A DNA stretch of 64,000 nt from Candidatus Tumulicola sp. (GTDB lineage: Bacteria > Vulcanimicrobiota > Vulcanimicrobiia > Vulcanimicrobiales > Vulcanimicrobiaceae), in contig DASXDT010000005.1 of NCBI GenBank assembly GCA_036490475.1, positions 372,001-436,000 of the forward strand. The letters are read 5' to 3'. The stretch's first letter is position 1, and each line of letters starts with the position of its first letter. The translations under genes and the position numbers were made by a program. Below the pieces are notes generated by a model. The model saw nothing but the letters and a program-made list of their open reading frames with translations. It did no database searches and was not told the DNA's origin. Positions 1,228 through 19,065 of this stretch are shown here, one piece after another.

Positions 1228-2472
1228 TTGAAATCAACGAAACGGGCCCTCCGATTCATCATTGTTTTGGGCGTCGTCAGCCTCTTTGCTGACTTTACGT
1301 ACGAAGGCTCGCGGAGCATTGCAGGCCCGTACTTAGGACTCCTCGGCGCGAGTGCAGTGCTCATCAGCATCGTTGCTGGCTTCGGAGAACTGCTGGGCTA
1401 CGGTCTACGGCTCGTCTCTGGGCCATTGGCGCAGCGGACAGGTCGTTTTTGGCTTATCACGATCGCAGGATATGTTCTTCAGATGAGCTCCGTTCCGCTC
1501 TTGGCACTCGCAACCAATTGGCAAACTGCTGCAGTGCTCATCGTCCTCGAGCGAGTCGGTAAAGCGGTGCGCAATCCCCCACGCGACGTCATGATTTCGT
1601 ACGCCGCCAAGGAAGTTGGTTATGGCTACGGCTTTGGAGTGCACGAGGCGCTCGACCAGCTCGGAGCGTTGATTGGTCCGCTGCTTGTGGCGCTGGTCCT
1701 AGCGACGCATCATGCGTTTCGGGCGGCGTTCGTCGTCTTAGCGGCTCCGGCAGTCGTTACGATCGTTGCCGTCATCGCGGCGCGTGTTATTTATCCGCGA
1801 CCGCACGACTTTGAAAGGCCCGAACGAACCCCTGTCGCTCGCGCTCGACGCGACCCGGCGCTCATTCTGTATCTGTCGGGAGCGATACTGGTGGCGGCCG
1901 GTTTTGCCGACTACCCTCTCATCGCGTTTCACTTTCAGCGGCATCTCGGTATGACCACATGGCTTCCGATCGCCTATGCTATCGCGATGGCGACGAGCGG
2001 ACTAGGGTCACTGCTCTTCGGACGCCTCTTTGACCGTACCGGGCTCACTATATTAGTTCCGTTGACGATTCTAAGCGCAATATCGGCGCCGCTCGTCTTT
2101 CTGGGTGGCTTCTGGCCTGCAATTGTCGGTGCGGCACTTTGGGGCATCGGCATGGGCGTTCACGAATCGATCATTCCGGCAGCCGTCGCTCGAATGGTCC
2201 ACCCAGAGAATCGCGCGACGGCGTACGGCGTGTTCACCGGCCTTTACGGCGTGGCTTGGTTTCTTGGAAGTATTGCAATCGGCGTTCTCTATTCCAGGTC
2301 CTTACCGTTACTGGTCGCGTTCTGCGTACTCGTCCAGCTCGCCGCAATTCCGTTCTTCATCGTCGTGGCACGAATTATCGACCGGCGCTCACGCGGAGAG
2401 GACCGGAATGGCGGCGGCCGAATCAGCTCGGTAGGCGATGGAGCGCCGCCTAAACCGCCGCATCGTGGCTGA
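1228..2472 (+). CDS. MFS transporter whose 3' end is inside a riboswitch
   Basis: A 414-residue major facilitator protein with about twelve membrane segments. The inter-helix motif appears as RVGKAVRNPPRD and its second-half counterpart as LFGRLFDRTG. The start is TTG at 1228, supported by GGGAG six bases upstream. The transported substrate cannot be read from the sequence; the neighbourhood suggests an ion or toxin exporter. The last 13 or so codons are also the fluoride riboswitch that begins at 2434. The stop codon TGA (2470-2472) is the UGA inside the conserved CUGAUGGC segment of that RNA, so the C-terminal tail (GDGAPPKPPHRG) may be an accident of overlap. Ribosomes reaching the stop could unfold the aptamer. 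Confidence 0.85.
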   Translation: MKSTKRALRFIIVLGVVSLFADFTYEGSRSIAGPYLGLLGASAVLISIVAGFGELLGYGLRLVSGPLAQRTGRFWLITIAGYVLQMSSVPLLALATNWQTAAVLIVLERVGKAVRNPPRDVMISYAAKEVGYGYGFGVHEALDQLGALIGPLLVALVLATHHAFRAAFVVLAAPAVVTIVAVIAARVIYPRPHDFERPERTPVARARRDPALILYLSGAILVAAGFADYPLIAFHFQRHLGMTTWLPIAYAIAMATSGLGSLLFGRLFDRTGLTILVPLTILSAISAPLVFLGGFWPAIVGAALWGIGMGVHESIIPAAVARMVHPENRATAYGVFTGLYGVAWFLGSIAIGVLYSRSLPLLVAFCVLVQLAAIPFFIVVARIIDRRSRGEDRNGGGRISSVGDGAPPKPPHRG

Positions 2473-2484
2473 TGGCTCCTGTTC
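2434..2484 (+). promoter_or_regulatory. Fluoride riboswitch 1
   Basis: It matches the crcB-motif layout: GGCG-AU, P1 strand GGAGC, pseudoknot partner CGCC, AAACC, stem GCC...GGC, UGAUG, P1 strand GCUCC. GGCG pairs with CGCC and GGAGC with GCUCC. It overlaps the end of the transporter gene and precedes the GTPase gene. Downstream GGAG (about 2489-2492) can pair with the CUCC of P1, giving an alternative hairpin. Confidence 0.93.
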
Positions 2485-2505
2485 GAATGGAGACCTCGCT
2501 ACGAC

Positions 2506-4224: not shown

Positions 4225-4799
4225 AACCGGAGAGCGTAGCCCGGCTTCGTGACGCCGAGCGCGCTGCGGCGCGCGTCCTCGACCACGGCTGCATCGAAGA
4301 CCTAACCGAAGTCGAGCGGTTTCTCGCGCGACCGCTGCGCGAAGCTGAAACAGAGTTGCGAGAAGCCCTTGAATCGCTCGGCAGTCTCGATCCGTTCCTT
4401 CGGCGCAATGTGGTGCTGCAAGCAGCCGAGCAAACGATAGGACGGTGCTGGGAAAAGGTCTTTGCGAACGTGGCGCTCCGTTTCTGTGCGCGCTTTTCAA
4501 TTTACATCGACGCAGTTGTAGCTGCTGAAGAACGCTTTTTGGCCGAAAACGGGACGGAACATCCGTGCCGGGTGAAGCCCCGCCGCATAGCGGCCCCACG
4601 TATCGTAACTCCGGATGTTCCCCATGTCACAATCGATGTCGGCGAAACAGAATCGATCGTCACAAGGTGTCTTGTGCAAGTCGAACGGGATCTCAGGGAA
4701 GCGATCGCCGCCGAAGTCGAGGATGCCCGACGACACCTGATGGATCGAGCTATCCTCAACTTAGCCCGCACGCACATTGCGACGCTCTTAGGCGCTTGA
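4221..4799 (+). CDS. Unknown helical protein coupled to the dynamin-like GTPase
   Basis: A 192-residue protein of no family I recognise. It is rich in charged heptad-like helices (residues 1-60 and 145-185), with no signal peptide or membrane segment. Its ATG overlaps the TGA of the GTPase gene (ATGA at 4221-4224), a translational coupling that implies matched amounts and probably a physical partnership; partner subunits are common for bacterial dynamin-like proteins. Its 3' end overlaps the convergent MutS-like gene by 12 bases. Function unknown. Confidence 0.75.
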   Translation: MKPESVARLRDAERAAARVLDHGCIEDLTEVERFLARPLREAETELREALESLGSLDPFLRRNVVLQAAEQTIGRCWEKVFANVALRFCARFSIYIDAVVAAEERFLAENGTEHPCRVKPRRIAAPRIVTPDVPHVTIDVGETESIVTRCLVQVERDLREAIAAEVEDARRHLMDRAILNLARTHIATLLGA

Positions 4800-6290
4800 G
4801 CTAGCCTCACCAAAAATCACTCGATAGACATCGGCGCCGTAACTCGTTCGCTCCGGGGCAGCTTCGACGAGTTTGAACGTTCGCGTCCCGTCGTCCAGCC
4901 GCTCTGCGCGCAGAAAAAGGACGTCCGGTTTTCCGAAGTATGCACGTGCGAACTCGTACTGATGGCTCACAAAGAACACGCGAACCTTTGCCTCCAGAAG
5001 CGCCGTTACAATCTGGCGGGCGACCTCAGCGCCTTCACGCTCGTTCGTGGATGAAAAGGATTCGTTGAAGAGCATGACCGTGTGTGGCCCCACAGTATCG
5101 ATAATGTCGCTTAGACGATGCAGCTCTTCATCCAGCTTACCGCTCGTCATTGCAGCGTCCTCTTCGCGTCGGTAATGCGTGAACAGACCAGTGCAAAGGG
5201 AGGCCTGTGCTGAGGAAGCCGAGACGAACATGCCGCACTGCATCATGAGATAGAAGAGCCCCACGCTACGCAAGAACGTGGACTTGCCGCCCTGGTTGGC
5301 CCCCGTGATGATTGCGAGATCTTTACCACCGGCATCGACTGTGTTAGTAACCACGCTGCTACCCGTGTTCAACACCAAACACGGATCGTACAGTTTCTTT
5401 ATTTGGAAGACATCATCTTCGGCAGCACGTACTTGCGGAAAGCAAATGGGAACGTCCAGCTCGCGCAATCGAACAAGCAAGTTCAGGCATCCAACGTAAA
5501 ACGCCAGTTCTGCCCGCAAGACGAAAAAAAAGCTCACCAGATGATCGCAAGATTGCGAGATCGCGTTGGCAACTAAGTTCAGTCCCCGATCGCGTAGCTC
5601 GGACAATGCTCGCAACCCCGCTTCGTCTCGCTCGTGAATGTGAAACGTATATCGGTTTCGATCTGCGGTGTCGAACCAACGCGCGAACCAGCCCCCGTCC
5701 GTTCTTGCAGGTCCGCGAAGCACGTAGTCCCCGGCCTTATTTCCTTCGCCGAGATGAGCGCTCATTTCCAGGCCACTTCGAAACGACATTTCGTAAAGAT
5801 ACCGTTCGACGGAAGAAAGATAGTCGTCGGCCAGTTCTGCGTGCAGCATCGTAAAGAGCGTCCGAAACGCCTCGGAAGTGAAATCGTTAAGATGGTCGTC
5901 GGCAATCGCGCGTAAGCTACGCAATGATTTCGCTAGGAACTGCAGCAACCCGCTGCAGCGGTATAGCAAGGAGCTCGGCGATCGGCCGAGCGAAAAGAAC
6001 CCTTTGTGGGCTCCTTCAACCACGCTATCGGCCAGCGCAAAGATAGCTCGCACAACGTCTTCTCGGTCGATACAATCTTTAAGGGCGCACTGCCGGTACT
6101 CAATCGCTGCAACGTCGGTTAATGATTGCATAATCACCTTCGGGAGCACGGACGCGACGATGGCATCGCCGGCAGACATTGCGGCGAAAAGCGTGCGCAA
6201 GTCCAGATCAGCTATAGACGCGGTAGAAGAGAGCGAGGGTGTCGTCTCTGCGCTGATGTCTCGGTCGGCGAACAGCAGATGAGGTTTCAC
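4788..6290 (-). CDS. MutS-like ABC ATPase (second of pair)
   Basis: A 500-residue protein with a MutS-family ATPase domain at the C-terminus. The Walker A is TGANQGGKSTFLRSVG near residue 330, the signature region follows, and the Walker B reads VMLFNESFSST. The N-terminal 320 residues are helical and resemble MutS lever/core regions; a mismatch-recognition domain I is not seen. Such proteins are separate from canonical mismatch repair and their job is unknown. Its start overlaps the stop of the upstream MutS-like gene by four bases, so the pair may form a heterodimeric ATPase. It is the last gene of the operon led by fluoride riboswitch 2. Confidence 0.85.
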   Translation of the reverse strand: MKPHLLFADRDISAETTPSLSSTASIADLDLRTLFAAMSAGDAIVASVLPKVIMQSLTDVAAIEYRQCALKDCIDREDVVRAIFALADSVVEGAHKGFFSLGRSPSSLLYRCSGLLQFLAKSLRSLRAIADDHLNDFTSEAFRTLFTMLHAELADDYLSSVERYLYEMSFRSGLEMSAHLGEGNKAGDYVLRGPARTDGGWFARWFDTADRNRYTFHIHERDEAGLRALSELRDRGLNLVANAISQSCDHLVSFFFVLRAELAFYVGCLNLLVRLRELDVPICFPQVRAAEDDVFQIKKLYDPCLVLNTGSSVVTNTVDAGGKDLAIITGANQGGKSTFLRSVGLFYLMMQCGMFVSASSAQASLCTGLFTHYRREEDAAMTSGKLDEELHRLSDIIDTVGPHTVMLFNESFSSTNEREGAEVARQIVTALLEAKVRVFFVSHQYEFARAYFGKPDVLFLRAERLDDGTRTFKLVEAAPERTSYGADVYRVIFGEASSSA

Positions 6291-7813
6291 GATGGGAGTC
6301 GCTTCTTGAGAGATGCGTACGTCAAGCCGTACTTCTCGGCAATCGATTCGGCATATGAACGGCCGCCAGCGGGAGCTCGTCGAAGTTTAAACGTTCGAGC
6401 TTCGGTGTGCCCGTCGACGACTTCGCTTACCAAGCTAACGACAGACGGCCCTAGCCTCGACAATTCAATCAAGAATGTCACGCAGACGCACAGCGCGTCC
6501 AGGGCAATAATACGATCGAAGGTCTTCGTCGCCAGAGTAATCGCGTCTTCGACGGTGGTCGAGCTGAAGATCTCGTTCATGATAATGATGCTGCGTGACG
6601 TAGCGACCGCAAGAAGATCGCGTACCCGAATAAGATCGTCCTGCAATTTGCCGCGCAGCGTCTCGGCGCTTTCCACACGCTCGAAATGGGTGAAGATACG
6701 GTCAAAAATAAAGAGCCTCGCGCTGGAGCCGGGTACCGGTAGTCCCAACATGGCCAAATGATGCAACTGCCCAAACGTTCTCGCGAACGTCGTTTTACCA
6801 CCTTGGTTCGGCCCAGATATAACGAAGACTCGCTCGCATTCTTCTAGATGGAAGTCGTTGCAGACGATCGAGCCTTCAGTATTGGCTAAGCTAGTGGCTA
6901 GAGCTAGGTCAAACGTATCGGTCGCATACAGGGCTTTATCTGACTCGGCGAGATCGGGGTAGCAGAGATTCAGGCCGCTGATAGCGGCTAGTTCTGATAC
7001 GTGTTCGAGGTAGGCAAGATAAAAGCGGACTTCGCGATCGAATCGCTGGACTAAGGGGTCGTTGAAATCCCCGTGTTCTGCGGCAAACGTCCGTAAGGCG
7101 CCGAATTCGATTGGAAACAACGTGGCGACGCCGGCAAGGATCTGCTCTTCTACGTGGTTCAGATACGGCCGCTCGTAGAAAGTCGTTAGATGAGCTGTGA
7201 CGTTTCCTTGTCGGAACTTTTCAAAGATGGCCGTGATTTCGGCGGTATAATCCGGTTGCGATTCGTATCGTCTGACCGTGACTGACCCGCTGCCGACGGT
7301 CAGATTATACTGGATTGCGCCGAGCGCTTCTGCGACGCGCTGCCCGCCGTCCGATAGGCTGGTAAATCCGTTAGAGGTCACATACTGATCGAGGTATTTC
7401 ATGAGCATGGACAAGCCTTGGGATTGCGGATTGGCAAGGGCAAGCGATGCTGCTAGCTTGCGTACGCAACCGCAATACGTCTCGACCGACCGAGCGAACC
7501 ATCGTGCGGTTTGGTCGGCATTTCGCAATTCGTCGGCTTGCCGAAGTTGCTCGCGCATGCTCGTCATTCCGGCGCAAAACTCGGCCACGATACTGCGTAC
7601 ATCCTCGCGCTCGAGATCGCGTGCGATTTCCTGACGATATCGTATTGCCGCACTCGAGGTCAGACTTTCGTAAAAGAAGGGCGTGACATCGAACTCGGGT
7701 GCGCGCTTTGCGACTGCGACGACGATCTGATCCAAGTTGAGATCTCGAAAATATGCCGGTTCCTCGGTGGCTACCACGACGTCATCGAGTGAAAGAATGC
7801 TGTGAAACTCCAT
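6287..7813 (-). CDS. MutS-like ABC ATPase (first of pair)
   Basis: A MutS-related ATPase of about 508 residues. Walker A is SGPNQGGKTTFARTFG and Walker B is SIIIMNEIFSSTT, both in the C-terminal third; as in its neighbour, mismatch-binding domain I appears absent. The frame is open to 7846, but the ATG at 7813 sits five bases after the stop of the preceding gene, which suits coupled translation. The two ATPases differ in sequence although they share their layout, so they are old paralogs rather than a recent duplication. My recollection is that mutS-like genes were among those reported downstream of crcB-motif RNAs, which fits this arrangement. Confidence 0.85.
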   Translation of the reverse strand: MEFHSILSLDDVVVATEEPAYFRDLNLDQIVVAVAKRAPEFDVTPFFYESLTSSAAIRYRQEIARDLEREDVRSIVAEFCAGMTSMREQLRQADELRNADQTARWFARSVETYCGCVRKLAASLALANPQSQGLSMLMKYLDQYVTSNGFTSLSDGGQRVAEALGAIQYNLTVGSGSVTVRRYESQPDYTAEITAIFEKFRQGNVTAHLTTFYERPYLNHVEEQILAGVATLFPIEFGALRTFAAEHGDFNDPLVQRFDREVRFYLAYLEHVSELAAISGLNLCYPDLAESDKALYATDTFDLALATSLANTEGSIVCNDFHLEECERVFVISGPNQGGKTTFARTFGQLHHLAMLGLPVPGSSARLFIFDRIFTHFERVESAETLRGKLQDDLIRVRDLLAVATSRSIIIMNEIFSSTTVEDAITLATKTFDRIIALDALCVCVTFLIELSRLGPSVVSLVSEVVDGHTEARTFKLRRAPAGGRSYAESIAEKYGLTYASLKKRLPS

Positions 7814-7818
7814 TGCCG

Positions 7819-8493
7819 TTAGGCGTAGCGCGGCTGCGCGAAGCAACGGCAGCCTGGATGGAACGGCGGAATCCAGTGAAGACTTCGCTCACGCTGGCCC
7901 CAGCGCTCGCGACACAAGGTGCACGAACCATCGTATCCATGGACGTCAAAGCTCGCGCACCGAATATGGGTTAAAAGGCGCTCGCGATCGGCGAGCCGCC
8001 ACAACCAGTTTCCGATGATTTCCACGAGCGCGAGATCTGTGACGAGCTCCTCGGGCGATGCAACCGCGGCGAAACGATACTTTTCTGGGCCTGTTCTCGC
8101 GGTCCATCCATGTTCCATTAAGGCTTTCAGTCCGGATCGATACGTCGAAGCTCGCATATCTAGACTCCACGCCGTGGCCCGCGCGACAATCATGCGATTG
8201 AGGTCACCGGCACGTGAACGTACCAACCGCGCCGCAATCGAAAGCGATCGCCAACGCGATAAATCCAAGTGTGCCGATGGTCGGAGGGCGAACATCCATA
8301 GATGCGGGCGCTCACCCGAGGCAACGCAATAATCTCTGTACCGTGCGAGAGGCTCCCGCCAAAGGTCGAGCCCGATTAAACAGGCGGCGACATCCGTGCT
8401 ACTGTATGCACCGGGTGAGCGCGCGAGTGTCGTGCGTTCTTCCTGAGGAATATCGGGAAATACGTTTGCGATCGTGGCGTGCGGTTCTTGCAA
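7819..8493 (-). CDS. Unknown protein with C-terminal CxxC / HPGCRC motif
   Basis: A 224-residue protein with no known name. It is clearly homologous to the C-terminal part of the DUF190 fusion at 9066: both have a DxAACLxGLxLWRxPLARYRD block, a TDLALVxxIxxWLxRLxDR block, and end in CxxCRxRWG then PPFHPGCRCFA. The paired cysteines and histidine look like a metal site, probably zinc. The start is TTG at 8493, with AGGAG seven bases upstream. That ribosome site lies in a hairpin with the 3' P1 strand of fluoride riboswitch 2 (GGCTCCT pairs with AGGAGCC). It leads an operon with the two MutS-like ATPases. Confidence 0.8.
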   Translation of the reverse strand: MQEPHATIANVFPDIPQEERTTLARSPGAYSSTDVAACLIGLDLWREPLARYRDYCVASGERPHLWMFALRPSAHLDLSRWRSLSIAARLVRSRAGDLNRMIVARATAWSLDMRASTYRSGLKALMEHGWTARTGPEKYRFAAVASPEELVTDLALVEIIGNWLWRLADRERLLTHIRCASFDVHGYDGSCTLCRERWGQRERSLHWIPPFHPGCRCFAQPRYA

Positions 8494-8524
8494 CGCAAGG
8501 CTCCTCTCTCTCGTTTCTTAGAGT

Positions 8525-8576
8525 ATAGGAGCCATCAGCCGATTCGATCGGCGGTTGCGGGCGGCGCTCCATCGCC
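8525..8576 (-). promoter_or_regulatory. Fluoride riboswitch 2
   Basis: On the minus strand it reads GGCG-AU-GGAGC-GC-CGCC, then CAACC, a GCC...GGC stem with a nine-base loop, UGAUG and GCUCC. All crcB-motif pairings are complete. The downstream AGGAGCC, which contains the ribosome site of the gene starting at 8493, is exactly complementary to the GGCTCCT at its 3' end, so aptamer and sequestering hairpin exclude each other. Confidence 0.95.
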
Positions 8577-8982
8577 TGAACTGTGCCTTTGCCGACGCAC
8601 GCATCGTCTCCTCGTTATACAGTGGTGCTCGATAGGACGCAGAACCGCGTGAGTTGAAGGCCCGCCTGAGAGCAGTGCGAGATTTTCAAAACGGCAGTTT
8701 ATGCCGCTGTTATTGAGCGGTTTCGCTCGCGGCATGTAGCAGGCACAACCACCTTTCGCGGAGTCCAACAGGTCGGCAGAGGGCATAACCCGCATAGAGC
8801 AGCCCTTCACTGGCGTCGCCAACATTGCCGATCATCGACGAGGTTGTCGACCTACCCGAAAGGATTGCATCAGTGCTTTCACACGGCCGGGAAGCGGTCA
8901 CAGACGGGCCCGTCGCCGTTGAACAGGTGCAGTTTTTGAGCATCCCAAAACCTTAGGGTACGCACGATCTAAAACAAGTCCG
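8577..8982. other. Divergent promoter region between riboswitches 2 and 3
   Basis: About 400 bases separate two back-to-back fluoride riboswitches. No reading frame here looks like a protein. The region must hold both promoters, but I cannot pick convincing -35/-10 pairs by eye. Confidence 0.5.
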
Positions 8983-9040
8983 GGCGATGGAGCGCCGCCG
9001 ATGTAACCGCCGGGCAGACTGGCTGATGGCTCCTACATAA
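8983..9040 (+). promoter_or_regulatory. Fluoride riboswitch 3 with SD-sequestering hairpin
   Basis: It reads GGCG-AU-GGAGC-GC-CGCC, then AACC, GCC...GGC, UGAUG, GCUCC, UAC. Immediately after, GCTCCT and CATAAA (9030-9041) can pair with TTTATG and AGGAGC (about 9048-9059) to form a long hairpin that buries the ribosome site of the gene at 9066. This is the clearest expression platform in the window: fluoride-bound P1 takes the CUCC strand and frees the ribosome site. Confidence 0.95.
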
Positions 9041-9065
9041 ATCGCAGTTTATGAGGAGCAGTTAA

Positions 9066-10663: not shown

Positions 10664-10683
10664 TCGACATCCTCGCTTTCGAA

Positions 10684-10732
10684 TAGGAGCCATCAGCCGT
10701 TGGCCGGCGGTTTGGGGCGGCGCTCCATCGCC
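10684..10732 (-). promoter_or_regulatory. Fluoride riboswitch 4
   Basis: On the minus strand it reads GGCG-AU-GGAGC-GC-CGCC, AAACC, GCC...GGC, UGAUG, GCUCC. Downstream, GCTCC-ATTCGA pairs with TCGAAT-GGAGC and is followed by a T-run (TTTTTC), giving a hairpin that resembles an intrinsic terminator and covers the start region of the NUDIX gene. Confidence 0.94.
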
Positions 10733-10835
10733 TCGAATACTTAAGAATTCACCTCATTTCTACCCAATCCTTCGCGATATATGCTTGCGCGCGACAGCGC
10801 TTTGCGTCATCCTAAGCATAGGCCTAAATCGGCCA

Positions 10836-10888
10836 GGCGTTGGGGCTCGCCGCGCACTAGACCGCTCGTCAGGATGATGGCTCCTACC
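10836..10888 (+). promoter_or_regulatory. Fluoride riboswitch 5 (divergent copy)
   Basis: GGCG (10836-10839) can pair with CGCC (10848-10851). GGGGC pairs with GCUCC with one G-U pair. The conserved 3' part AUGAUGGCUCCUAC is intact, but the AU after GGCG is UU and the middle stem is weak. It is therefore a diverged but plausible crcB-motif RNA. A GGAG at 10896-10899 can pair with its CUCC and serves the GTG at 10908. Only about 100 bases separate it from the opposing riboswitch 4. Confidence 0.7.
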
Positions 10889-10907
10889 ACCTTTGGAGAT
10901 CCACGCT

Positions 10908-11342
10908 GTGGAAGTTCCTCGTCCCTCAAGGTGGGCGTCTCTCACCGAGCGAGTCCGGCGCTGGCTGGATAGAAAAGCGTGCCAAGATGCCGAATCCATC
11001 GCGGCGTTAGAAGTCGAGTGTGCCGGTCTGCGCGAACGCTTGTCCGAAAGCGAACGGCGTGGGCGCGACCGGAGTGAAAGGCTTTATGAGTTGCAACGTC
11101 TGTATTCGGCCGAGCACTTTGAATATCAAGAGGCGTCGCGCAACCTCAATATCGAGCGTCTTCGCAATGCCGGAATGTTTGGCGATCGAGACATTCTCAT
11201 TTCGCGTTCCAAGGAGCTCCAACGTCGCATTCGATACCTGAAGGAGCGACTACGAAAATACGAAGAGGTCGTGGATATCCATGAAGATGAAGCGCCAATT
11301 GTCATTGAAAGTGAGGCACCAGGAGCCTCACCGGCACGATAG
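10908..11342 (+). CDS. Coiled-coil protein of unknown function
   Basis: A soluble protein of about 144 residues dominated by charged coiled-coil segments (leucine/arginine/glutamate heptads around residues 20-70 and 95-125) with an acidic tail. I recognise no family. The GTG at 10908 is preferred over the TTG at 10893 because GGAG at 10896-10899 lies nine bases before it and would be the site sequestered by riboswitch 5. It lies between riboswitch 5 and the divergent riboswitch 6 ahead of the hydrogenase-like operon, so it may share a transcript with that operon. A scaffold or assembly role for the complex is possible but unproven. Confidence 0.65.
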   Translation: MEVPRPSRWASLTERVRRWLDRKACQDAESIAALEVECAGLRERLSESERRGRDRSERLYELQRLYSAEHFEYQEASRNLNIERLRNAGMFGDRDILISRSKELQRRIRYLKERLRKYEEVVDIHEDEAPIVIESEAPGASPAR

Positions 11343-11356
11343 AAAGTGACCGCAAC

Positions 11357-11418
11357 GGCGGAGGAGTTCGCCGGCGAGTGCAACTCGCGAAAAGCCATTC
11401 GGCCAATGACTCCTGACG
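11357..11418 (+). promoter_or_regulatory. Candidate variant fluoride-type riboswitch with extra hairpin
   Basis: GGCG (11357-11360) can pair with CGCC (11369-11372), and GGAGU (11363-11367) with ACUCC (11409-11413). AAAAGCC-AUUC-GGC follows the order of the crcB motif, then CAAUG. It differs from the consensus in three ways: GA replaces AU after GGCG, CAAUG replaces UGAUG, and a GCGAG-UGCAA-CUCGC hairpin is inserted after the pseudoknot. GGGAG at 11442-11446, the ribosome site of the next gene, can pair with its CUCC. It may be a degenerate copy or a variant with a changed ligand. Confidence 0.5.
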
Positions 11419-11452
11419 AACGAATACGCTGGCGTTACGTTGGGAGAACTGT

Positions 11453-12409
11453 TTGACCCTCACCCCTACCGCGGTCCAGGCGGCACAGGTGCTGACCTTA
11501 GTGCTGTTGTCTCCGTTACTGACTGGGTTCATCGCCCGGCTAGAGGCTGTGGTCGCCGGCAAGCGGGGGCCATCGTTCGTTCAGCCCTACCGCGATATTG
11601 TAAAGCTCTTTCACAAGCAGTCCCTGGTACCCGAGCCATCGTCCTGGGTTTTTCGGACGGCTCCATACGTAGCGTGCGGCGCGTATGCGACAATCGCGAC
11701 ATTGATTCCGGTGTTGACGACGTATCCGCTGCCAGGCGCCACCTTCGGCGACATCCTTGCCGGCGCGTTTCTGTTCGCGTTAGCGGGATTCGTTACCGCG
11801 TTGGCAGCGATCGACTCCGGTTCGCAGTATGCCGACATCGGTAGCAGTCGTGCGACAATGGTCGGCATCCTCGTCGAGCCGACGCTTATCTTTGTTTTCT
11901 TTTCGGTCGCATTCATAACTGGAACAGATCTGCCGTATGCGATGAACGCCGCGTTGCGCCATTCTGCGGCAAATGTGCTTCGCCCGGCCCACGTCCTGGC
12001 TACTGCTGCATTCTTCATGATGATGCTTGTCGACACCGGCCGCATACCTATCGAAAGTTCCTCCGCAACCGTGGAATTCGGGATGATCGATGACGCGCGC
12101 TGGTTCGAGCACTCAGGTCCCTGGATGGCGCTCTTTCGGTGGGGCTCATCCATGAAGCAGTTTCTGCTGTACGTCGTCTTTGTAAACGTGCTGCTGCTTC
12201 CCATGGGGCTTTCGTCAGATGGAAATGTCGGCTCCGTCGCATGGGCTGTTGTCACGCTCCTACTAAAAATGCTCCTCATTGCTGTCGTGGTGGTCGTCAT
12301 AGAAACGTCATTTGCGAAACTGCGACTCTACAAGATTACGGAATTCATTGCGACCGGCTTGCTGGTGGCAGTTTTAGCCGTTTTTGCCTACGTGGTTGGG
12401 GTCGGATGA
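11453..12409 (+). CDS. hyfC: Hydrogenase-4/complex I-like membrane subunit (HyfC/NuoH type)
   Basis: A 318-residue protein with about eight membrane helices, of the NuoH/HycD/HyfC family. This subunit normally joins the redox arm to the proton pumps. Family blocks are present: GKRGPSFVQPYRDIVKLFHK in the first loop and DTGRIPIES...VEFGMIDD in the later acidic loop. The start is TTG at 11453 with GGGAG six bases upstream. It is the first gene of a tightly packed operon in which the first five of six genes each overlap the next by four bases. Whether the complex is a hydrogenase is doubtful because the soluble subunits have lost their cofactor ligands. Confidence 0.9.
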   Translation: MTLTPTAVQAAQVLTLVLLSPLLTGFIARLEAVVAGKRGPSFVQPYRDIVKLFHKQSLVPEPSSWVFRTAPYVACGAYATIATLIPVLTTYPLPGATFGDILAGAFLFALAGFVTALAAIDSGSQYADIGSSRATMVGILVEPTLIFVFFSVAFITGTDLPYAMNAALRHSAANVLRPAHVLATAAFFMMMLVDTGRIPIESSSATVEFGMIDDARWFEHSGPWMALFRWGSSMKQFLLYVVFVNVLLLPMGLSSDGNVGSVAWAVVTLLLKMLLIAVVVVVIETSFAKLRLYKITEFIATGLLVAVLAVFAYVVGVG

Positions 12410-13077
12410 GTCTGCACGAGCTCACTGTGCCACAAGCGATGGCGGGCACGATCGCCATGCTGTTACTGCTCGTGCAGCTAGCATTGTTCCGGTCGGTCGT
12501 CATCCCGGAATTCATCCGGCTCTACGCAGTCCAGTCGTGGCTCGTTGCGGCGATTTGTCTCGGCGCCGGTATCACCGAGCACGCCTGGGATCTGATCGTC
12601 CTGGCTATCCTGACCGCCCTGTTTAAGGGACTGCTTCTTCCTGGATACATGCGCGCGCTAGTTCGAGGCATTTCGATGCGAATCGAACTGCCCGCCCGAG
12701 TAAACGTTCTGTTGTCCTTGATTATCGCGGGAGCGTTGATCGGGGTCTCGATTTTAACAGCAGTGCAGTTGCCGCTGCTGGGCGGCATCTTCTTAGCAAA
12801 TGCCGACCTTGCAACAACGCTTTCAATAGTTTTCACGGGATTTCTTCTTGCGATCTTACGGCCAAATGCGGTGGCGCAAGTCATCGCCTTTCTGACGCTC
12901 GAGAATGGCTTATTTTTCGGTACGATCACCCTTGCTCCGGGTCTGCCGTTTATCATCGGCGTCTTGCTGTTGATTGACGTGCTCGCGGCGGTCGTCGTAT
13001 TCGCCATTTTGGTTCGAGCGTTGGTGGGGTCGCAGGCCGCCGCATCCGTTTCGCTCTTTGAAAGGCTGCGAGGGTGA
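12406..13077 (+). CDS. hyfE: HyfE-like membrane subunit
   Basis: A 223-residue, about seven-helix membrane protein similar in length and layout to HyfE of hydrogenase 4 (NuoK-like C-terminal half, for example LRPNAVAQVIAFLTLENGLF, where the glutamate is the NuoK-type channel residue). The ATG at 12406 overlaps the stop of hyfC; the frame upstream of it is not coding. It forms part of the proton- or ion-translocating membrane arm. Confidence 0.85.
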   Translation: MSLHELTVPQAMAGTIAMLLLLVQLALFRSVVIPEFIRLYAVQSWLVAAICLGAGITEHAWDLIVLAILTALFKGLLLPGYMRALVRGISMRIELPARVNVLLSLIIAGALIGVSILTAVQLPLLGGIFLANADLATTLSIVFTGFLLAILRPNAVAQVIAFLTLENGLFFGTITLAPGLPFIIGVLLLIDVLAAVVVFAILVRALVGSQAAASVSLFERLRG

Positions 13078-14519
13078 GCGCGCTATCGTGGGTTATTGTT
13101 GCGATTCCCTTGGGATTGGCATTGGCCGTTCTCGTGGTGCCCTCGCGCGCCGGTCGTTATGCGACTGCCATCGGATCGATTACGTGCGCCGCATGCATCG
13201 GGGTGCTGCTTGTGCGCATCGCCGGCGGGGAAGGCCGTTTGGACGCTCTCTCGGCGCTGTTTCTCGCTCCAGTCGCGATCGTCTACGGGTCAGTAGGACT
13301 GTATTGCCTGTGGTATGTGCGCGCAGAGCCGATCGGCGCGAACGGAGAGGAGCGCTACCGTCGCGAGTTTCTTGCGCTGACGAATGCGTTCGCTTGCGCC
13401 GAAATCGTCGTACCCCTTTTGAGCAATATGGCCGCGCTGTGGGTGGCGCTCGAAGTGACCACGATCCTAGCGGCATTACTCGTGCGTTTGCAAGGCTCAG
13501 ACGCGGCTCTCGAAGCGGCGTGGAAATACCTGTTAGTTGCGTCTTGTGGTTTGGCACTCGGTTTGATCGGGGTCGTTGTACTCTACGCGTCGGGTACGGG
13601 TGCTCTTGGGAGTCATTACGCCCCGCTGTGGTCTTCCTTTATGGCGGTGTCGTCGAAACTCGATTCGAACGCATTGCGACTCGCTTTCATATTCGCGCTG
13701 ATCGGCTTTGGAACCAAGATGGGTCTGGCTCCGATGCACACCTGGCTTCCCGACGCACATGGCGCGGGCCCAACGCCGACGAGCGCGATGTTGTCCGGCG
13801 TGTTGCTATCGGATGCGTTATACGTGATTCTCCGCTTCGCGGCAATTGCGAACGCCGCGCTCGGAACGGGCATGACGCAGCGCTCATTCTTCATCGTTGG
13901 ACTGCTGTCGTTGTTTGTTGGTGCGTTCTTCTTGCTACGCCAACGTGACATTAAACGAATGCTCGCCTATTCGAGTATCGAGCACATGGGCATCATCGCA
14001 TGCGGCCTCGCATTTGGGGCACCCTTGGCGTTGGCTGGGGCGTTGTTACACGTCGTCAATCATGCCGCAGCCAAGGCACTGGCGTTCTATGGGGCTGGCC
14101 GGTTGGCGGCACGGTACGATACGCGAGAAATAGAACGCATTCGCGGCGCAGCTACGATCTTGCCCATATCGGGAACGTTGTTTGCAATGGCGGCGCTGGC
14201 CCTGGCGGGAATGCCCCCATTCGGTCCATTTCGTAGCGAGCTAATGATCCTCTCCGGAGGTTTCTCCGGATTGGCGTGGCCGGTCGCCATCGTCGTTGTC
14301 GGATTATTGCTGGTTGCTTTCGCCGGTATTACGCGTTGGACGATCGCGATGACGGCCGGTGCGGCGCCGCAAGGCGTGCAGCGCGGTGATCGTGATCCGG
14401 CTGCGATCGCGGCGATGGTAGCAGTGTTTACGGTGGTTCTCGTAATAGGACTCTACGTTCCAACTCCGCTCGCCGTGCTCATCGCCAATGCTGGAGCCAT
14501 CGTACGAGGACATCCGTGA
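13074..14519 (+). CDS. hyfF: HyfF-like antiporter-type subunit (NuoM/NuoN family)
   Basis: A 481-residue subunit of the Mrp/NuoLMN antiporter family with about fourteen helices. Channel residues of the family are kept: the glutamate in WVALEVTT, the broken-helix region GLAPMHTWLPDAH, the lysine in HAAAKALAFY, and SSIEHMGII. The start is GTG at 13074, overlapping the previous stop. Preservation of these residues contrasts with the lost cofactor ligands of the next two subunits, so ion movement may still be selected. Confidence 0.88.
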   Translation: MSALSWVIVAIPLGLALAVLVVPSRAGRYATAIGSITCAACIGVLLVRIAGGEGRLDALSALFLAPVAIVYGSVGLYCLWYVRAEPIGANGEERYRREFLALTNAFACAEIVVPLLSNMAALWVALEVTTILAALLVRLQGSDAALEAAWKYLLVASCGLALGLIGVVVLYASGTGALGSHYAPLWSSFMAVSSKLDSNALRLAFIFALIGFGTKMGLAPMHTWLPDAHGAGPTPTSAMLSGVLLSDALYVILRFAAIANAALGTGMTQRSFFIVGLLSLFVGAFFLLRQRDIKRMLAYSSIEHMGIIACGLAFGAPLALAGALLHVVNHAAAKALAFYGAGRLAARYDTREIERIRGAATILPISGTLFAMAALALAGMPPFGPFRSELMILSGGFSGLAWPVAIVVVGLLLVAFAGITRWTIAMTAGAAPQGVQRGDRDPAAIAAMVAVFTVVLVIGLYVPTPLAVLIANAGAIVRGHP

Positions 14520-15898
14520 AGGCCTCAGACGCACTCCTTGAGACGCGCAATGCGCTCGCTGCCGGTGCGCGCTTTGCGTGGCTGTTCTTCGAAGCGGTTG
14601 GGGGCGCCACGCGCGCCCATTACGTGGTCGATGATGCCGGCAAGCTGCACGATTGTGCCGGTGACGTCGAAGGAACGTTACGGTCGCTAGCCTCCGCCAC
14701 GCCTGCCGCAGAATGGTACGAGCGCGAAGCCATCGAGCGCTTCGACATTTCGTTTTCGGAGCTTCCGCTGGCGGCAACGCTGAGCTACCCGGTTGCGGCC
14801 GAGGAGCTTCGCAGCTATTCCGCTTCTGCCGAGGTCTCCACGGTGCTCTATGGTCCCGTGCGTTCGGGAATCGTTGAATCCGCGCGTTGGAATGTCGGCA
14901 CGGCTGGCGAAGATTTCATCGACGTCTGTCCATCGATGTTTTTCAAGCATCGCGGGCTGGAAGAACGTTTCGAGGGCACGCCGCTGCAGCTGGCGCCCTA
15001 CGTGGCCGAGTACGTCTCGGGAGCAACGGCATCGAGCCACGCAGCCGTGTTCAGCCGTGCGGTCGAGGCAGCGCTCGGCATTCGCGTTCCCGATCGTGCG
15101 CGTGCCGCGCGAGCCGTACTTGTCGAGCTCGAGCGGATTCACCAGCATCTTGACTCGTTGGCAAAACTCGCCGATGATGGCTCGCTGTCGGTTGGAGCTG
15201 CCATGACATTTGCGGCGAAGGAGCGCGTTCACCGTTTGCTCTGTGAAGCCACCGGTAACCGATTCGCGCGTGGAACGATCTGCGTCGGAGGAACGCGATT
15301 CGACGCGCTCTCGCGCCTGGCCGACGCGTGCGAACGTGCGCTGGACGAGGTCCAACAGCAGGCGACGCAGACCGTCGCGGGATTGGTATCGACGCCGTCG
15401 CTCATAGATCGCCTTATCGGAACCGGTCGATTGGACGAGTCGACGATTCGTGCATACGGTGCCGTCGGTCCGGTGGCGCGCGGCAGCCACGTTTCTAGCG
15501 ACGTCCGCGCCTGTGACGGCTACCTTTACACGCCGCTTGATGGTGAGGAGACGCGAGAGCAAACCGGCGATGCCGCGGCCCGCGCTCTGGTACGAGTCGG
15601 GGAAATAACACGTTCGTTCCAGCTCATCCGCAACGCCCTCGATGCTGACCCTGCCGGGCCCAGTGTAGTGGCGTATACTCCACAAGACGGATCCGCTATC
15701 GCGCGGGTCGAGTCACCGCAGGGCGAGCTATTGTATTTCGTCCGCATCGAGAGCGGTATTCTGTCGCGTGTTGCGATCCGATCTGCGTCCTTTGCGAATT
15801 GGCCAGCGTTCGTGCCTTCTCTGCCCGGAAACATCTTTACCGACTTTTCGTTTATCGAGCACTCCTTTGGAGCGATCCAGGCAGAGGTCGATCGATGA
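14516..15898 (+). CDS. hyfG: HyfG-like large subunit lacking all NiFe cysteines
   Basis: A 460-residue NuoCD/HyfG-type protein. The NuoC-like part ends in WYEREAIERFDISF, and the large-subunit part keeps the family framework (RARAARAVLVELERIHQHL, the GRLD and VGPVARGS blocks). In true [NiFe] hydrogenases the L1 motif is CxxC...H and the L2 motif is DPCxxC. Here L1 aligns as V-S168-G-A-T171-ASS-H175, and L2, at the extreme C-terminus, aligns as G-A-I454-Q-A-E457. All four metal cysteines are replaced while the flanking sequence aligns without gaps. NuoD of complex I also lacks NiFe, but here the partner small subunit has lost its cluster too. The GTG start overlaps the hyfF stop. Confidence 0.9.
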   Translation: MKASDALLETRNALAAGARFAWLFFEAVGGATRAHYVVDDAGKLHDCAGDVEGTLRSLASATPAAEWYEREAIERFDISFSELPLAATLSYPVAAEELRSYSASAEVSTVLYGPVRSGIVESARWNVGTAGEDFIDVCPSMFFKHRGLEERFEGTPLQLAPYVAEYVSGATASSHAAVFSRAVEAALGIRVPDRARAARAVLVELERIHQHLDSLAKLADDGSLSVGAAMTFAAKERVHRLLCEATGNRFARGTICVGGTRFDALSRLADACERALDEVQQQATQTVAGLVSTPSLIDRLIGTGRLDESTIRAYGAVGPVARGSHVSSDVRACDGYLYTPLDGEETREQTGDAAARALVRVGEITRSFQLIRNALDADPAGPSVVAYTPQDGSAIARVESPQGELLYFVRIESGILSRVAIRSASFANWPAFVPSLPGNIFTDFSFIEHSFGAIQAEVDR

Positions 15899-16638
15899 GC
15901 TGGCTGATGCGCGGTATACGAGGTGGTATTCTCACGACGCGCTATCCGTCCGGCGGCGACGAGATGCCGCAAGCGTACCGCGGCGCGATCGAAGCGTTGC
16001 CGGCAGACGTCGACGTCCAGCGTCGTGCCGCTGCGGCCTGCCTATCTGGAGCAATCATACCGAGCGAGGGCCGTGCCGTCATCGACCCAACACGCTGTTT
16101 TCAATGCGGAGAATGCGCACGCGCCTTTCCGGAGGCGTTCCAAACGACTTCCACGTTCGAGCTCGCGCTGACGGGCGGCGATCCGCATTCGATCCAAGAA
16201 CGGCTCGCCAAACGGGTGCGCACATTAGGACGATCGATTCATCTTCGTCATGTCGACGCAGGCAGCGACGGTTCTGAAGAGCAGGAGCTTGCAGCAATTT
16301 TCAATCCATACTACGACGCAAATCGCTTGGGAATCTTTCTCACGGCGACGCCCCGACATGCCGATGTGCTCGTCGTGACCGGTGCTGTGACGCAATCCAT
16401 GCGCGAGCCATTGCTGCGGACGTTCGACGCAATGCCGAATCCCAAAGTCGTCATCGCACTCGGAACCACGGCGTGCTCCGGCGGAATCTTTGCCGCCGCA
16501 GGCGGCGCGCCCGTCCCGGTACGCGCGGTGCTCGACGTCGATGTCATGATCCCAGGAGCACCACCTGCGCCGCTCTCGATTCTTCACGGCCTCTGGGTCG
16601 CGCTCGGTCGCTCAGATGCACGAGGAACGTTCTTGTGA
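15895..16638 (+). CDS. hyfI: Ferredoxin-like/HyfI small subunit fusion with lost proximal cluster
   Basis: A 247-residue protein. Residues 1-95 resemble HyfH/HycF (TTRYP entry motif, then one ferredoxin motif) and residues 105-247 are the NuoB/HyfI small subunit. In the small subunit all four proximal-cluster cysteines are gone: positions aligned to CNGC are D125 and E128, the third is T192 and the fourth is A222 (PGAPPAP). Cys194 remains nearby. In the ferredoxin part Cys68, Cys71 and Cys74 are present but the fourth is phenylalanine; Cys49, the equivalent of the CP cysteine of the missing first motif, could complete one [4Fe-4S] cluster in the usual crossed fashion. The ATG overlaps the previous stop. 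Confidence 0.88.
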   Translation: MSWLMRGIRGGILTTRYPSGGDEMPQAYRGAIEALPADVDVQRRAAAACLSGAIIPSEGRAVIDPTRCFQCGECARAFPEAFQTTSTFELALTGGDPHSIQERLAKRVRTLGRSIHLRHVDAGSDGSEEQELAAIFNPYYDANRLGIFLTATPRHADVLVVTGAVTQSMREPLLRTFDAMPNPKVVIALGTTACSGGIFAAAGGAPVPVRAVLDVDVMIPGAPPAPLSILHGLWVALGRSDARGTFL

Positions 16639-18614
16639 TTGCTTTGCTCGTCGCCTTTGCGCTGTGCATTGTCGGCATCATTCTCGTCGTCGCGATACGC
16701 GGACCGCTCGGTCGGGCGATCGGCTTTATGTTCCTTGGCGCCGCTGGGATCGCATCGCTCATATCGGCTGCGACCGCCCTTCATTCGAGTAGATCGTATG
16801 CGTCTGGCCCGCCGGATGCACACCTGCTGCTACGCATGGACGCAGTTTCGGGATTCTATATCGGTCTAATCGGAGCAATTGCCGTAATCGTTGCGGTGTT
16901 TGCGTTGGGCGGCCGCAGTGCCGACGAACGAGGCGCTGGTCACACGGCTGCGGCAAGTTCCTGCGCTGTCCTACTGGCGTCGTTAGTAACGTGCGCGGCC
17001 GGCGACGTCTTTTTGTTTCTTTTCGGCTGGGAATTGCTCGCATTGGCGTTTTTCTGGTCAATTGGATATGCAGGGACGGACGAATCCGCGCCGCGATCTG
17101 CGTACGTTACACTCGTCGTTACACATGTTGCAGGCGGCTGCCTACTTGCCGCGTTATTGACGCTCGCCCACGCTGCGGGCAGTTTCGAGGTCGGAGACGC
17201 GATTGCGGCCGGAACCCACTTTGTGGGCGCCTCCGGCGGCTTCATACTTGTACTACTCGTTATTGGGTTCGGCGCGAAGTTCGGCATGCTCCCGCTACAG
17301 GGTTGGATGCCCTACGGTTATCGAAGTGCGCCGAGTGCGGTTGCGGCGTTGATGGCTGGCGGTGCACTCAACGTAGGCTTTTACGGCATATCACGTTTCG
17401 TGCTTGCGTTCCCCCAGGCGCCTCTGTGGTTAGCCATCGCAGTGATTGCCGTCGGTTCTGTCGGCGCATTTTTTGGCATTTCATGGGCTGCTGGGCAACG
17501 AGACATGCGCGCGCTCGCTGCCTACTCAAGCGTCGAAAACAGCGGCATCATCTTTGCTGCCTTCGGCGTCGCGATAGCGGGTCGGGCGCTTCACGATCCG
17601 ATGCTGATGGGATTCGCGCTGGCAGCAGCCTCAGTGCAAATCGTTGCGCACGCCGTGGCCAAGAGCACCCTATTTCTGACCATTGCTTCAGTGAATGATG
17701 CGCGTTCAAGCACCGACCTGGATAAGCTCGGAGGCTTAGCGCGCGTACTTCCGTTGACAACCCTTTCCGCAATATTGTCCGGCATGTCGCTAGCAGCGCT
17801 TCCGCCGCTTGCTGGCTTTGTCGGCGAGTGGCTCGTGCTTGAATCGCTCATGCAAGCGTTTCGTACCGGAAACGTTGCTTCCGAAGTCATTTTCGCACTC
17901 GCCGGCGCAATCATTGGCGTTGCGGCTGGCATTGCGATCGTGACGTTCACGAAGTTTGTCGGCATTGGTCTGCTTGGCGCTTCACGCTCAGTAACGCTAC
18001 AGAGGGGTTTCGTTGTTCGAGCTCCGCTGCGCGGGGTGGGGTTGCTTCTCGGCTGTGCGGCGATTGTCGGAACCGGCGTGTTCGCTCGATCCTTACTTTC
18101 CACCATTGCACCGAGCATTGACTCGGCTTCGCACAGCGATGCAGTTGCCGCGATGATCGGAGTTTTCCCGTTAGTCGCGCCTGCCTTCGGTGGCTTTTCG
18201 TCGGTCTCGCCTGGGGGAATGGGCCTAGTGCTGGCAGGGTTCACGATCATGTTTTGGATCGTTTCAAAGCTATTTTCGCGGCCGGCGTCGTCAGCGACCC
18301 CCGCTTGGACATCGGGCGAGCCGTACCGCTCTTGGACGCAGTACGGCGGCACAGGTTATGCCAATCCAACCCGGGTCATTTTGGACGTCGTTACACGAAC
18401 AACGCGAGCCGTCAATCCAGAGATACGTACGTACGACAGCTCGGTTCGGCCGTTTTTCGAGCTGGCATGGTATCGCTGGCTTTTTACACCTCTGTTGTGG
18501 ATTGCATCCGCCGTACGAGCGACGCAGTCAGGCAGCATCGGTGCCTACTTGGCCTACATTCTGACGTTTACAATCTTAATGCTATTACTATTTCCCTCGA
18601 TCCGCCATTGGTAG
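16635..18614 (+). CDS. hyfB: HyfB-like antiporter-type subunit (NuoL family)
   Basis: A subunit of about 659 residues of the NuoL/HyfB family with about sixteen helices. Family channel residues are intact: glutamate in LFLFGWELLAL, the AKFGMLPLQGWMPYG region, lysine in HAVAKSTLFL and SSVENSGII. The GTG at 16635 overlaps the hyfI stop (GTGA); the longer frame upstream overlaps hyfI and is spurious. It closes the core of the complex; the UspA gene follows after seven bases. Confidence 0.88.
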   Translation: MIALLVAFALCIVGIILVVAIRGPLGRAIGFMFLGAAGIASLISAATALHSSRSYASGPPDAHLLLRMDAVSGFYIGLIGAIAVIVAVFALGGRSADERGAGHTAAASSCAVLLASLVTCAAGDVFLFLFGWELLALAFFWSIGYAGTDESAPRSAYVTLVVTHVAGGCLLAALLTLAHAAGSFEVGDAIAAGTHFVGASGGFILVLLVIGFGAKFGMLPLQGWMPYGYRSAPSAVAALMAGGALNVGFYGISRFVLAFPQAPLWLAIAVIAVGSVGAFFGISWAAGQRDMRALAAYSSVENSGIIFAAFGVAIAGRALHDPMLMGFALAAASVQIVAHAVAKSTLFLTIASVNDARSSTDLDKLGGLARVLPLTTLSAILSGMSLAALPPLAGFVGEWLVLESLMQAFRTGNVASEVIFALAGAIIGVAAGIAIVTFTKFVGIGLLGASRSVTLQRGFVVRAPLRGVGLLLGCAAIVGTGVFARSLLSTIAPSIDSASHSDAVAAMIGVFPLVAPAFGGFSSVSPGGMGLVLAGFTIMFWIVSKLFSRPASSATPAWTSGEPYRSWTQYGGTGYANPTRVILDVVTRTTRAVNPEIRTYDSSVRPFFELAWYRWLFTPLLWIASAVRATQSGSIGAYLAYILTFTILMLLLFPSIRHW

Positions 18615-18621
18615 GTGTTGT

Positions 18622-19065
18622 ATGTTTTCACACATTATCGTAGCTTGGGACGGTTCCGAGTGTGCTCGTCGAGCTTTCGAGTACGCAATCGAGATTGCGA
18701 AACGGTTCGAGTCGCGTTTGCAGCTCGTTTCCGTTGCGCAGCCGGCTGCTTATGCTGAAACATCCGCAGAAGTGGAAAACGATAGAGCCAAAGCGCACCG
18801 ATTTTACGAAGGCAGTGCGGCCTCGCTCATCGACCTGAGCCGTGAACGAGGTGTCGGGACAGAATTGCTGATCGTCGAAGGCGGCCATCCGGCTGAGGGC
18901 GTGGTCGACACTGCCTCGAAGATTGGAGCTGATCTCATTGTCGTGGGCCGCCGCGGGCTCTCAAGCGGAATCACGCGTTTCCTGATAGGGAGTATCTCCG
19001 ACCGAATCGCGCGTTATGCGCACTGCCCAGTATTGTTAATTGACAACCCGCAGAAACGATCATGA
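18622..19065 (+). CDS. Universal stress protein (UspA family)
   Basis: A 147-residue single Usp domain with the ATP-binding pattern GRRGLSSGITRFLIGSIS (G-x2-G-x9-G-S). It begins seven bases after the hyfB stop, so it belongs to the hydrogenase-like operon. Universal stress proteins bind ATP or AMP and adjust energy-stress responses. I recall that uspA-like genes have been reported among those downstream of fluoride riboswitches. The start is ATG with AGGTGTTGT before it. Confidence 0.9.
   Translation: MFSHIIVAWDGSECARRAFEYAIEIAKRFESRLQLVSVAQPAAYAETSAEVENDRAKAHRFYEGSAASLIDLSRERGVGTELLIVEGGHPAEGVVDTASKIGADLIVVGRRGLSSGITRFLIGSISDRIARYAHCPVLLIDNPQKRS

Follow-up and report, generated by a model that had tools for sequence, protein, structure and literature searches.

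The window, i.e., the whole stretch of 64,000 nucleotides of Candidatus Tumulicola sp. DNA that was analyzed, contains a hydrogenase-4-like operon that begins with a HyfC/NuoH-like gene and is followed by a gene for a universal stress protein (Table 1). The paired NiFe-binding CxxC motifs of hydrogenases are absent, by eye, from the NuoC/D-like subunit (14516-15898), and therefore the complex encoded by the operon is probably not a hydrogenase. Five normal fluoride riboswitches that score above the Rfam cut-off occur within 12 kb of the leader of this operon, four in the window and one just outside. The cluster, which includes two further weak sites, spans C5:367-383 kb of the 3.3-Mb genome. 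The four riboswitches in the window precede, respectively, a dynamin-like GTPase gene, an unnamed ORF, a DUF190 gene and a NUDIX gene. There are two divergent pairs, 8519(-)/8974(+) and 10677(-)/10827(+), and the aptamer at 10677-10741 is of the A.U type described below. A sub-threshold fluoride-like site of 26.6 bits, with U6 and U38, is found at 10827-10893 (+) upstream of a coiled-coil ORF (10893-11342); in relatives, normal A.U aptamers precede the same coiled-coil gene. Another sub-threshold site of 27.1 bits (L006, C5:367166-367224, +) lies about 4.8 kb before the window. Its critical U41 reads C, and it is possibly decayed. Two adjacent MutS-domain-V proteins without other recognized MutS domains are encoded inside the fluoride island at 4788-7846 (-).

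Table 1. Features of the leader and of the surrounding fluoride island (window positions; aptamer residues in T. petrophila numbering)
Feature	Positions	Strand	Evidence or remark
Normal fluoride riboswitch	2425-2488		Rfam, above cut-off
Normal fluoride riboswitch	8519-8585	-	Rfam, above cut-off
Normal fluoride riboswitch	8974-9042	+	Rfam, above cut-off
Normal fluoride riboswitch	10677-10741	-	Rfam, above cut-off
Pseudoknot 5' strand GGCG	11357-11360	+	Sequence, Rfam alignment, covariation (helix 1)
G6 (canonical A6), pairs with C38	11361	+	Sequence, 6/38 table
A7 (canonical U7)	11362	+	G6-A7 at 11361-11362 replaces AU
P1 5' strand GGAGU	11363-11367	+	Sequence, Rfam alignment
Pseudoknot 3' strand CGCC	11369-11372	+	Sequence, Rfam alignment, covariation
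J1/3 inserted hairpin GCGAGU-GCA-ACUCGC (6 bp, 15 nt)	11374-11388	+	Insert stem test, covariation, fold prediction
P3 hairpin GCC-AUUC-GGC	11394-11403 (GCC 11394-11396, GGC 11401-11403)	+	Sequence, Rfam alignment, covariation
C38 A39 A40 U41 G42 (canonical UGAUG)	11404-11408	+	A40, U41 and G42 retained
P1 3' strand ACUCC (11409-11413), then U48, linchpin partner of A40	11409-11414	+	Sequence
Putative anti-Shine-Dalgarno strand CUCCUGACG	11410-11418	+	Overlaps P1 3' strand; alternative-pairing test, fold prediction
Ribosome-binding strand CGUUGGGAG	11438-11446	+	9 bp with 11410-11418, two of them G.U
First regulated gene, HyfC/NuoH-like, UUG start	11453-12409	+	Pfam NADHdh, E = 6.4e-31
Rest of hydrogenase-4-like operon (HyfE-, HyfF-, NuoC/D-, NuoB+ferredoxin- and HyfB-like)	12406-18614	+
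Universal stress protein gene	18622-19065	+	Pfam Usp, E = 6.1e-32

An earlier note on this DNA had placed a pseudoknot, P1, an inserted hairpin and a further stem at 11357-11418, and all of these elements match the sequence base for base, coordinates included. The pseudoknot can be lengthened by pairing of C11356 with G11373. P1 (GGAGU/ACUCC) crosses the pseudoknot and is nearly invariant in the sub-type, hence its weak covariation. P3 adjoins position 38, as in RF01734. A40, U41, G42 and U48 are all present in the window and are kept in the variant leaders read, except for a change of G42 to A in L071. The leader thus shares with the crcB motif (RF01734; T. petrophila 4ENC, B. cereus crcB) the pseudoknot, P1, P3, A40-U41-G42, U48 and the order of the elements, as well as the gene neighborhood, and in both the switching strand overlaps the aptamer. 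It differs from that motif by G6.C38 in place of A6.U38, A7 in place of U7, A39 in place of G39, the addition of the 15-nt J1/3 hairpin, and its low score.

RF01734 was the sole match when 201 bases were compared with all Rfam families (21.2 bits, E = 5.7e-4, full length), and the Rfam alignment reads the hairpin as a 14-nt insertion. As this score is under the gathering cut-off of the family, 34 bits, the leader is classed as a variant rather than as a thresholded member. Orthologous leaders of the same type reach 35.4 to 35.7 bits, as do several relatives with both the hairpin and U7; the low score of the window copy is explained by the hairpin combined with A7 and other changes. Gene context also agrees with membership, with the hyf-like operon in the window and crcB, DUF190 and antiporter genes in relatives. 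Chance resemblance was ruled out by the Rfam E value together with the covariation described below.

The known structure has a reversed Watson-Crick pair between A6 and U38 and a Hoogsteen linchpin between A40 and U48, with fluoride held by Mg2+ ions sitting on the RNA (PMC11586693, PMC10687018); the U41A mutation abolishes the response (PMC11077080). The earlier note had taken GA and CAAUG as an altered ligand site. The differences are there, but they mostly amount to a compensated swap of A6.U38 for G6.C38, and U41 and the A40.U48 pair, both reported as critical, are unchanged. A reversed G.C pair is nearly isosteric with a reversed A.U pair, as known from the Levitt pair of tRNA.

The long-range 6.38 pair, present as G.C in the window, is coupled over 108 sequences of the host phylum, probably Vulcanimicrobiota, which were collected by a structural scan that required P1 and the pseudoknot and left positions 6 and 38 free. 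We counted 73 A.U, 32 G.C, 2 A.C and 1 G.U combinations, i.e., mixed pairs in 3 of 108; five further sequences had other combinations, several of them false scan matches. Because the Rfam model scores both positions as unpaired, mixed types would be expected to be easier to find than G.C. The Fisher p value of 7e-24 for the coupling overstates the case, as the sequences are related and the counts are not independent events. On a tree of the downstream antiporters, in which most G.C rows from other phyla were chosen by a pattern fixing G6 and C38, the two positions switch jointly in 4.7 of 5 supported independent comparisons; the corresponding sign test, the sole one that allows for kinship, is borderline (~0.06). 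U.A aptamers occur in other phyla as well, adjacent to some of these loci (L090, L120, L161, L162, L194 and L195). These comparisons show that positions 6 and 38, commonly depicted as an invariant A.U, covary as a pair would, between A.U, G.C and U.A. The 16 collected G.C aptamers with A7 all have A39 (16/16), in too few lineages to claim an A7-A39 dependence.

Among 98 related genomes, the hyfC-like gene has 10 orthologues with 74 to 86% identity besides the copy in the window, and the variant leader type is found in 10 of these 11 close copies (window and 9/10 orthologues). Only L027 has an ordinary A.U aptamer. In that genome (G017, C51:117696-117946), a G.C hairpin aptamer (L065) belongs to a divergent gene some 110 bp away, an arrangement that looks as though the leaders had swapped places. 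A covariance model built from the ten variant leaders found further members before other genes. In an alignment of 31 leaders, fitted to the proposed structure so that its pairing counts favor that structure, pairing in the pseudoknot, the inserted hairpin and P3 was kept in 93.8% of cells, versus 77.9% in shuffles and 24 to 47% in slid controls. Covariation scored 0.397; shuffles gave 0.145 ± 0.016, and no slid control exceeded 0.074. Seven pairs had both partners changed. Such two-sided changes occurred at all three modeled pairs of the inserted helix and in three pairs of the pseudoknot, in which 96.1% of cells were paired; the value for P3 was 96.8%. In an alignment-free test on 35 G.C aptamers, the stem scores of the insert summed to 440.5, versus 309.9 ± 12.4 for shuffles. 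The predicted overall fold of the window leader surpassed shuffles only moderately (z = -1.98, 7/200 as good). A lack of conservation or covariation in related leaders had been named in the earlier note as evidence that would speak against its proposal; the 31 leaders show conserved pairings with compensatory changes.

In the host phylum, J1/3 is 15 to 25 nt long in all 32 G.C aptamers, leaving room for a hairpin, and at most 12 nt long in 70 of the 73 A.U aptamers. In GTDB genomes, the G6.C38 pattern matches at least 119 DNA stretches, for a rough chance expectation of about eight if equal base frequencies are assumed. Among the matches listed are Acidobacteria, Myxococcales, Binataceae, Planctomycetota, Alicyclobacillaceae, Castellaniella, Thermomicrobiaceae and others. 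The inserted hairpin is missing from most of the matches listed and is not tied to G.C outside the host phylum; L078 and L229 are A.U aptamers with a hairpin. Such hairpin-less aptamers (Acidobacteria, Myxococcales, Binataceae and others) share with the window leader G6.C38, mostly A39, the core and the genes, but lack the J1/3 hairpin and keep U7 in nearly all cases. Of 16 loci tested against Rfam, nine have a G.C aptamer that scores above the cut-off. This indicates that G6.C38 as such is already within the Rfam family and that the identity of A and U at 6.38 is not required. Searches of the literature brought up no account of a fluoride aptamer with G6.C38 or with a J1/3 hairpin, a weak result as their coverage misses most of the subscription literature.

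A ribosome-binding site lies within the strand CGUUGGGAG, six bases upstream of the UUG start codon of the hyfC-like gene. Predicted without pseudoknots, the fold of the window leader includes the pseudoknot helix together with the inserted hairpin, P3 and a helix between CUCCUGACG and CGUUGGGAG. Relatives keep the alternative pairing through other sequences, e.g., CUCCUGACAAU/AUUGUCAGGAG and CUCCUAACG/CGUUAGGAG. Over 35 G.C leaders, scores for pairing between the P1 3' strand and the sequence downstream of it summed to 588, versus 259 ± 32 for shuffles, and the pairing was significant singly (p < 0.05) in 16 of the leaders; in hyf leaders the partner strand contains the ribosome-binding site. 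As P1 and the CUCCUGACG/CGUUGGGAG helix are mutually exclusive, stabilization of P1 by the ligand would free the ribosome-binding site.

These pairings point to the following mechanism. The aptamer would fold through the pseudoknot, P1 and P3, with G6.C38 taking the place of the reversed Watson-Crick A6.U38, presumably in the same reversed geometry, by the exchange known from the tRNA Levitt pair. The J1/3 hairpin would project outward from the core. Fluoride bound on backbone-bound Mg2+ would stabilize the A40.U48 linchpin as well as the pseudoknot and thereby keep ACUCC in P1. In the absence of fluoride, CUCCUGACG would pair with CGUUGGGAG and mask the site at which ribosomes bind before the hyfC-like gene. 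Fluoride would thus turn on translation of the hydrogenase-4-like operon, and the window leader is probably a translational ON switch. The fluoride riboswitches of Pseudomonas syringae and Burkholderia pseudomallei have been named translational (PMC13273304). The window leader would share with them the control of access to the ribosome-binding site, but is of another aptamer sub-type. Unlike them, L058 and L060, which are of the window's sub-type and lie before crcB, carry a comparable helix and, after it, a stretch of T residues, which looks like a terminator.

Within 1.8 kb of the G.C leaders of the host phylum we found hyfC in 12 of 32 cases, and crcB, DUF190 and antiporter genes in 10 of 32 each. 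The A.U leaders of this phylum precede the same families, i.e., crcB/DUF190, CPA antiporters and hyf operons. crcB encodes a fluoride channel. The contexts of the crcB motif in its original description include formate hydrogen lyase and mutS genes (PMC2864571). As both aptamer groups occur before the same genes, fluoride is likely the ligand of the G.C sub-type. A different ligand, i.e., another halide, an oxyanion or Li+/Na+, might be suspected from the four positions near the binding pocket that deviate from the textbook consensus, from the added hairpin, and from the Na+/H+-type antiporters that some G.C members precede. Yet the sub-type also precedes crcB channel genes, A.U and G.C leaders alternate before the same gene families, and U41, G42 and the A40.U48 linchpin are retained, which makes this reading, raised in the earlier note as another anion, very unlikely. 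That note had also considered a relic. Decay of a fluoride riboswitch would fit the low Rfam score of the window copy and the presence of two other off-consensus sites in the island, but it is contradicted by conservation in relatives: ten species share the same deviations, compensatory changes are seen in the pseudoknot as well as in the inserted hairpin and P3, and the ribosome-binding site keeps a pairing partner although the strands differ in sequence. We regard a relic as scarcely credible.

Two further readings concern the role of the hairpin. Its constant place and nearly always paired state could suggest a second input, e.g., a protein- or RNA-binding site. However, stem, loop and length vary freely between species (loops GCGA, AUCA, GCA and others), and we consider such a function highly improbable. 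A site with a conserved loop was rejected, as the G.C inserts compared have no shared loop or binding sequence. The G.C pair and the hairpin may adjust the affinity or the speed of folding, so that one island responds to fluoride in a graded way; the earlier note had listed a tuned copy among its options. This would be a refinement of the fluoride-riboswitch explanation rather than an alternative to it. Both sub-types coexist in one genome before different genes, and a stronger pair together with a linker hairpin would plausibly alter folding. Outside the host phylum, however, G.C aptamers without the hairpin precede ordinary fluoride genes, and lineage drift explains the pattern equally well. 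That a stable natural sub-type with G6.C38 and a J1/3 hairpin differs in fluoride affinity or folding rate from the normal type beside it, for a graded response, is thus a tentative proposal that we hold to be rather less probable than its opposite.

Judged from sequence comparisons, the window leader is very probably a working fluoride riboswitch of the G.C sub-type with an extra J1/3 hairpin, i.e., a variant of a known switch and not a new kind of sensor. This agrees with the main proposal of the earlier note, that of a fluoride-type riboswitch in variant form, with an added hairpin, before a complex-I/hydrogenase-4-like operon. The G.C variant appears ordinary in its predicted ligand and somewhat unusual in anatomy. 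For annotators, it matters that the hairpin-bearing group falls at or below the Rfam cut-off. The covariation of 6/38 backs the crystal-structure contact from evolution alone, and the finding strengthens the link between hydrogenase-4-like complexes and fluoride stress.
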